Notes under the pieces: model-generated
What the model was told of the DNA's origin: nothing
What the model saw: only the letters and a program-made list of their open reading frames with translations
Database searches by the model: none
In this document: one piece after another, positions 41,075 to 41,739 of the stretch
Layout: every line of letters begins with the position of its first letter
How positions within the stretch are numbered: the first letter of the stretch is position 1
IMG/VR virus record: IMGVR_UViG_3300008120_000110
Span: 1 to 45,912 of that record
From: a virus
Reading direction: 5' to 3' (one strand)
DNA: 45,912 nucleotides
Translations under genes and position numbers: made by a program

Positions 41075-41246
41075 CTTCAATAAGTTTTATTGTTGCTCGA
41101 AGGTCTCGCATGAGTGATTTGATTTTTTCGATAGCGGAGTCGTATCTCCTGTCCACCAAGTTTTCATAGATGGAAGTCACGTCTTCGTGAAAGCCCTCCG
41201 TCATAAATGATATGCGGTGGCCCCTATCTTTTTCCTGCTCAGTCAT
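41061..41246 (-). CDS. Small acidic helical protein, function unknown
   Basis: 61 residues: MTEQEKDRGHRISFMTEGFH then EDVTSIYENLVDRRYDSAIE and KIKSLMRDLRATIKLIEDDD. It is mostly helical and charged, without a recognised motif. It overlaps the DnaA-IV-like gene by 8 nt upstream and the nuclease-like gene by 14 nt downstream, so it is part of the same minus-strand operon and is likely a small partner of the replication proteins. I can say no more about its function. Confidence 0.5.
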   Translation of the reverse strand: MTEQEKDRGHRISFMTEGFHEDVTSIYENLVDRRYDSAIEKIKSLMRDLRATIKLIEDDDF

Positions 41247-41739
41247 CGAACATCTTTCTTATTTTGCGTTCAACAATTAACTCGTGCCCCACCGGAGTAT
41301 TCTCTTCAATTAATTTAATAATTTTCATAAGCCTACTTTCATCAGCAATTTTAAGCTGAGCAAGTTCCTCTTTTAATAAATAGATTTCTGCCCTCAAATT
41401 CTCACAATCATCAACTAAATTTACAGGTTGTTTTTCAGAAAGAAATAGCTCACGGCATCTTAAATATTTCCGCATCGTGTGCATATCTGTCTCCTTCAAA
41501 TCTTTTAGAGACTGAACGTAGTGTATGATTGTGGTATGGTCTTTATCAAGGGTCTCTGCAATGAAGGGCAGAGAATATCCTGCTTCACGCAGAAGTGTTG
41601 AATATATCATACGCGCTTCTACCACAAAACGCTTTCTGTTTTTGGCAAGGATGCTCACACCCGTTACCATCTCCACTATGTTGCGTACTACGTCAACATC
41701 AGTCCTTTGGTCCTCGATAGACAATTGCTTTAATTCCAT
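41239..41739 (-). CDS. DnaA domain IV-like DNA-binding protein fused to a coiled coil
   Basis: 166 residues. Residues about 15-85 match DnaA domain IV: VVRNIVEMVTGVSILAKNRK then VVEARMIYSTLLREAGYSLP, and the signature DKDHTTIIHYVQ that equals the D-H-T-T-V motif contacting DnaA boxes in bacterial DnaA. No AAA+ domain (Walker A/B) is present. The C-terminal half is a coiled coil (ENLRAEIYLLKEELAQLKIA) followed by a helical tail. It could bind DnaA-box-like sites at the phage origin, act as a phage initiator or helicase loader, or compete with host DnaA. The first 41 nt overlap the end of the VRR-NUC gene. Confidence 0.75.
   Translation of the reverse strand: MELKQLSIEDQRTDVDVVRNIVEMVTGVSILAKNRKRFVVEARMIYSTLLREAGYSLPFIAETLDKDHTTIIHYVQSLKDLKETDMHTMRKYLRCRELFLSEKQPVNLVDDCENLRAEIYLLKEELAQLKIADESRLMKIIKLIEENTPVGHELIVERKIRKMFDD

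Follow-up and report, generated by a model that had tools for sequence, protein, structure and literature searches.

A stand-alone DnaA domain IV protein in a clade of environmental phages, its domain IV partner and a two-copy repeat element linked to a PrimPol-SF3 primase-helicase

The IMG/VR record of 45,912 bases analysed here (the window, meaning this whole stretch) is a fragment of a genome from a phage clade with genomes of ~62 kb, and its source is described as a freshwater bacterial virus. We confirmed that it encodes a stand-alone DnaA domain IV protein, hereafter type A, in which a coiled coil takes the place of the AAA+ motor; relatives with a stand-alone domain IV number in the hundreds. 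What is new is that in a large clade this protein is paired with a second domain IV protein, type B, and that the clade carries a repeat-bearing element of low duplex stability in two copies, tied to a PrimPol-SF3 primase-helicase. We propose that, in the initiation of replication, this origin-like element is where the domain IV proteins work together with the primase-helicase, a proposal that in our judgement is evenly balanced between right and wrong.

A preliminary description had read the ORF, carrying DKDHTTIIHY, as a DnaA domain IV joined to a coiled coil instead of an ATPase, and sequence and structure comparisons bear this out. Pfam family PF08299 (Bac_DnaA_C) matches type A of the window with E=5.8e-9 and 36.3 bits against a cut-off of 31.5, and a PDB sequence search finds domain IV of E. 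coli DnaA (1j1v) with E=1.8e-4. The AlphaFold model, built from 43 homologues, has a pLDDT of about 90-97 over residues 8-102. Its top six PDB fold matches are all DnaA, the DNA-bound domain IV structures coming first, and it resembles 1j1v with an rmsd of 1.3 and a TM of 0.83 (target-normalised) and 3pvp with a TM of 0.87. The recognition helix DKDHTTIIHY occupies residues 65-74. The contacts of E. coli DnaA in the 1j1v complex, namely R399, R407, Q408, D433, H434, T435, T436 and H439, are retained at seven of eight positions of the 1j1v alignment, as R35, R43, D67, H68, T69, T70 and H73. Every DNA-contacting Arg, His and Thr residue is thus in place, and Q408, replaced by M44, is the only one changed. 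Within the type A family, H68 is retained in 45 of 59 members and H73 in 35 of 59; PF08299 matches at E<=0.01 in 41/44 type A and 35/35 type B members.

At 166 aa, type A is too short to hold an AAA+ module, and the NCBIfam DnaA models align with it by their C-terminal ~90 positions only and far below cut-off (35.8 bits against 343.9 for the initiator equivalog TIGR00362); the protein is without a motor. In its place the model has the long helix listed in Table 1. Farther on, G151 and E153 are at least 90% conserved among 43 type A members, and the C-terminal helix is a candidate contact site for another protein.

Table 1. Features of the window, with the evidence for each
Feature	Position	Strand	Evidence
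PDDEXK_14 phage endonuclease	40658..41080	-	Pfam
61-aa ORF, between type A and PDDEXK gene	41061..41246	-	PHROG 32863, E=1.6e-4, no function given
Type A stand-alone DnaA domain IV protein, 166 aa	41239..41739	-	ORF list; Pfam; fold match
C-terminal helix of type A, residues 153-165, starting in TPxGxE motif	41245..41283	-	AlphaFold and conservation
Coiled-coil helix of type A, residues 112-147, replacing the motor	41299..41406	-	AlphaFold, pLDDT about 70-90
Domain IV fold of type A, residues 8-102	41434..41718	-	AlphaFold helices 8-26, 37-52, 57-64, 68-84, 86-102
VRR-NUC nuclease, directly upstream of type A	41699..41947	-	Pfam, E=1e-11
SF2/SNF2-like helicase	41947..43437	-	Pfam ResIII, SNF2-rel_dom; PHROG 62
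Primase-helicase, 802 aa: PrimPol (BT4734-like_N), PriCT-1 and DUF5906 (SF3-like)	43385..45793	-	Pfam
Partial element copy 1, last 119 bases of the window, cut by contig end	45792..45910	-	nhmmer E=2.5e-15, model positions 74-191
Repeat core CGACATA	45806..45812	-	Element sequence
Repeat core TGACATA	45857..45863	-	Tandem TTGACAG next, at 45849-45855

Leftward from the contig end, the genes follow in the order primase-helicase, SF2 helicase, VRR-NUC, type A, 61-aa ORF and PDDEXK nuclease; the helicases and nucleases named as neighbours in the preliminary description are all recognised by Pfam. The window also encodes a protein of 2718 aa (31653-39809), presumably a giant virion protein; a gene of 11.6 kb lies at a comparable place in MW202828. 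This relative has a circular genome of 60.85 kb, and its primase is 79.5% identical to that of the window. To the replication block MW202828 adds a Sak annealing protein, a DUF3799 nuclease, a metallophosphatase and ThyX, and no DNA polymerase was found among ten scanned early-region proteins.

Relatives were collected by a primase scan, which gave 556 matching stretches in IMG/VR, and 80 loci were retained. The 11 near-complete genomes are relatives selected for their length of about 60-66 kb, of which only 4 have short terminal repeats; MW202828 was deposited as circular. Clade members encode, besides type A (mostly 160-200 aa, located 4-8 kb downstream of the primase in complete genomes), a second domain IV ORF, type B, of about 100 aa, 2-6 kb upstream of the primase. 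With counts that hinge on ORF calling and profile thresholds, type A is present in 60/64 and type B in 51/54 loci having enough flank, and each of the 11 near-complete genomes has one A and one B. The window ends before the positions expected for the type B gene and the second element copy of its own phage. The type B model (pLDDT 95) finds DnaA in its best nine PDB fold matches, with TM 0.74-0.83 over almost the full length; as modelled, type B is little more than domain IV alone. The profiles of A and B align at a probability of 97%. Type A is fast-evolving, with a mean pairwise identity of 30%, vs. 53% for the well-conserved type B. In a single relative (G020), a third ORF of the domain IV kind, 126 aa long, lies upstream of type B (L084:5916-6296). 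The clade is a large group of ~60 kb podovirus-like phages whose hosts are probably Bacteroidota. A search of genome contigs did not settle on a host: its five matches fell in mixed MAGs, namely Cytophagales, Flavobacteriaceae, two Gammaproteobacteria bins, which probably hold stray phage contigs, and one Lachnospiraceae, where the match is probably a host DnaA.

The element spans ~180 bp, combines an AT-rich tract with direct repeats aaTCGACATAa, and occurs in two copies in 11/11 near-complete genomes. Copy 1 abuts the primase-helicase gene, and copy 2 lies 9-14 kb upstream. The element often includes a terminator of the preceding gene, followed by ATGTC half-sites and a pyrimidine/AT tract (CTCTATATATATTATTATT); then come the tandem pair aaTYGACATAaTCGACAt, a conserved TTAATAATCAATtAGTTA and more repeats as far as the start codon. 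The core YGACATA reaches 27 times its mean density in the 200 bp that precede the primase. A profile built from the primase-upstream DNA, with copy 2 left out of the building, found copy 2 in 11/11 genomes with E values from 4e-26 to 1.5e-10. The least stable 80 bp of the genome lies inside copy 1 in 7/11 genomes and copy 1 ranks sixth or better in all 11, while copy 2 is among the two least stable stretches in 7 of 11. Clustered direct repeats adjoining an AT-rich tract of low stability are a feature of origins, and the element has them.

Copy 2 occupies a divergent region beside groEL and keeps the same genome orientation as copy 1, though the adjacent gene runs opposite; in most genomes, the next start of a rightward gene is about 0.5-1 kb away. 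The minimum of the cumulative GC skew is 0.5-2 kb from copy 2 in the 11 genomes; gene direction also switches there, which confounds the skew. In MW202828, ~230 bp of G+C-rich CGACG/ACGCG repeats (L009:42960-43190) lie about 150 bp right of copy 2 in a genome of ~39% G+C, and a perfect 16-bp palindrome, GTGTCGTTAACGACAC, has three early-region copies (L009:43742-43757, L008:1875-1890, L008:2741-2756). The window had hinted that the repeat core is avoided outside the elements (3 of 6 cores outside, about 12 expected); this is not general, the 11 genomes having 163 vs. 183 (rank 50 of 120 permuted words).

Among the 71 loci with type B and at least 5.5 kb of downstream sequence, the element is present in 71/71, and a recognised primase also in 70. 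Since A, B, the element and the primase are inherited together in the clade, this co-occurrence amounts to little more than one independent evolutionary event. The cultured outgroup Elemovirus elemoF has a related PrimPol domain with a different (AAA_25-like) helicase part and is without A, B and the element. Another outgroup, the marine relative L209 (L209:6284-8703 and 9977-10507), encodes type A along with a fusion of PrimPol and a DnaB_C-like helicase, and is without B and the element; no repeated word in its noncoding DNA exceeds two copies. Type A is thus not strictly tied to the element, and type B may be. L209 also encodes an upstream protein of 204 aa that has no Pfam match and contains a DRSTIHN helix like the domain IV recognition helix.

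It had been suggested to search for DnaA-box-like clusters (TTATnCACA and variants). None occurs in the window, where boxes are rarer than chance, and across the clade they appear at two loci only, unconserved; clustering is seen for repeats with a YGACATA core. In the window and 11 related genomes, TTWTNCACA was observed 51 times against 108 expected, a scarcity of ~2-fold that is suggestive at most, since 3.5% of permuted words reach it too. The resemblance of the element repeat to a DnaA box is weak, with 2.9% of permuted boxes scoring equally well. In MW202828, three DnaA-box-like sites at 59861-59900 (L008:11862-11901), including a perfect TTATCCACA and a near-palindrome TGTGGATTAATATCCACA, lie just upstream of the VRR-NUC and type A genes; they are absent from the window and the other loci and possibly serve autoregulation.

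As to the mechanism, we infer that the element is an origin and that A, B or both bind it. The domain IV proteins would bind the direct repeats of the two copies and, once bound, would help to bend the AT-rich tract next to them or to open it. The tract would be handed to the PrimPol-SF3 primase-helicase encoded beside copy 1, whose SF3 helicase would do the work of the AAA+ motor in trans, at a bipartite origin. The coiled coil and C-terminal helix of type A would mediate contacts to the primase-helicase or to a further A or B molecule. In its full form, a hybrid initiation in which two motorless domain IV proteins have separate roles, PrimPol-SF3 acts in trans at a bipartite origin and YGACATA is recognised by an altered DnaA specificity, the scheme is tentative and we lean somewhat against it. 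The three roles first offered for the protein were marking the phage origin, recruiting the helicase and blocking host initiation. Origin marking in partnership with the helicase is the best supported, in a changed form: it would operate via two proteins and two elements, which lie mostly outside the fragment.

Either the domain IV proteins or the primase-helicase itself could read the YGACATA repeats. The type A recognition helix is decayed in two sub-groups (KKSRYSAEYY and KRDYGVYMYY), in which the repeats are intact and B is mostly so; the type B recognition helix is altered in loci L035, L040/L043 and L090, in which A is intact and the repeats persist. A complementary decay of A and B mostly holds among these few cases, but in L023 the recognition helices of both are altered, and there too the repeats persist. 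This maintenance of the repeats next to a degenerate helix of A, B or both speaks for the primase-helicase itself as the binder, with A and B accessory or acting elsewhere, as do the conservation of the primase and its adjacency to the element. There is also the precedent of initiators of the P4 alpha type: alpha unites primase, helicase and its own origin-binding domain, and binds the ori and crr repeats. Against this reading, which we consider rather unlikely, a Pfam search identified no DNA-binding domain in the primase C-terminus, and two conserved DnaA domain IV proteins would remain unexplained.

Less probable still is that A and B are transcription regulators and that the element consists of operators and an AT-rich promoter that switch the primase and groEL operons. 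Domain IV also serves DnaA in its role as a transcription factor, one copy of the element precedes the primase and the other adjoins groEL, the groEL gene of MW202828 has a TAnnTTTG box of the Bacteroidota type before it, and the possible autoregulatory sites before the nuclease and type A genes of that phage would fit as well. However, the orientation of copy 2 is held despite the opposite groEL, mostly with no rightward gene starting nearby, and the duplex instability of copy 1 is extreme. The remaining proposal, that type A occupies the DnaA boxes of host oriC and so blocks or hijacks host initiation, draws on most of the DnaA-box contact residues being present in type A of the window, on the scarcity of canonical boxes, as if titration were avoided, and on the fast evolution of A, yet it is very improbable, given the DNA-contacting helix decayed in two sub-groups, the changed Q408, the share of permuted words that are just as scarce and the place of the type A gene in a replication-recombination block, and nothing we found supports a block of host initiation.

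Compared with known systems, type A shares with DnaA domain IV (PF08299; 1j1v, 3pvp) the fold, the recognition helix and the arginines preceding it, and differs from DnaA in being without domains I-III and the AAA+ ATPase, in its added coiled coil and in the change of Q408 to Met. Stand-alone DnaA_C proteins are annotated in the phages Muminvirus tooticki (gp026), Harrekavirus (gp24), Pelagibacter phage HTVC100P (gp21) and Caudoviricetes MW202828, so that the single type A protein belongs to a known kind. Like type A, they are short, have one domain IV and are encoded in an early or replication region; their identity to it is about 28-35% over the matched part. Among the four, MW202828 is the one surveyed for the A-B pair, a PrimPol-SF3 partner and both copies of the element. 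The open-access literature yielded no function for a stand-alone phage DnaA domain IV. Satellite phage P4 likewise combines primase and SF3-type helicase in a single protein and has two cis regions, apart from each other, that bear repeats; in P4 the binding domain lies within alpha, whereas the clade has separate domain IV proteins, and the repeats are unrelated. By analogy, the pair, PrimPol-SF3 and the two-copy element look like the alpha/ori/crr layout of P4, but one in which DnaA supplies the recognition part. In the chromosomal oriC, DnaA boxes lie beside a DNA unwinding element (PMC5295021). The phage element resembles it in that the repeats adjoin an AT-rich, easily melted tract, and differs in its core, YGACATA instead of TTATnCACA; no phage-encoded AAA+ DnaA was found.

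If the proposed mechanism is true, the DNA-binding domain of DnaA is a detachable origin-recognition part, which a virus has combined with an unrelated helicase, and in bacterial initiation the step of recognition is separable from that of melting and loading. The clade offers small pieces for testing this, a protein of ~100 aa and an element of ~180 bp, in the uncharacterised replication of widespread environmental phages.
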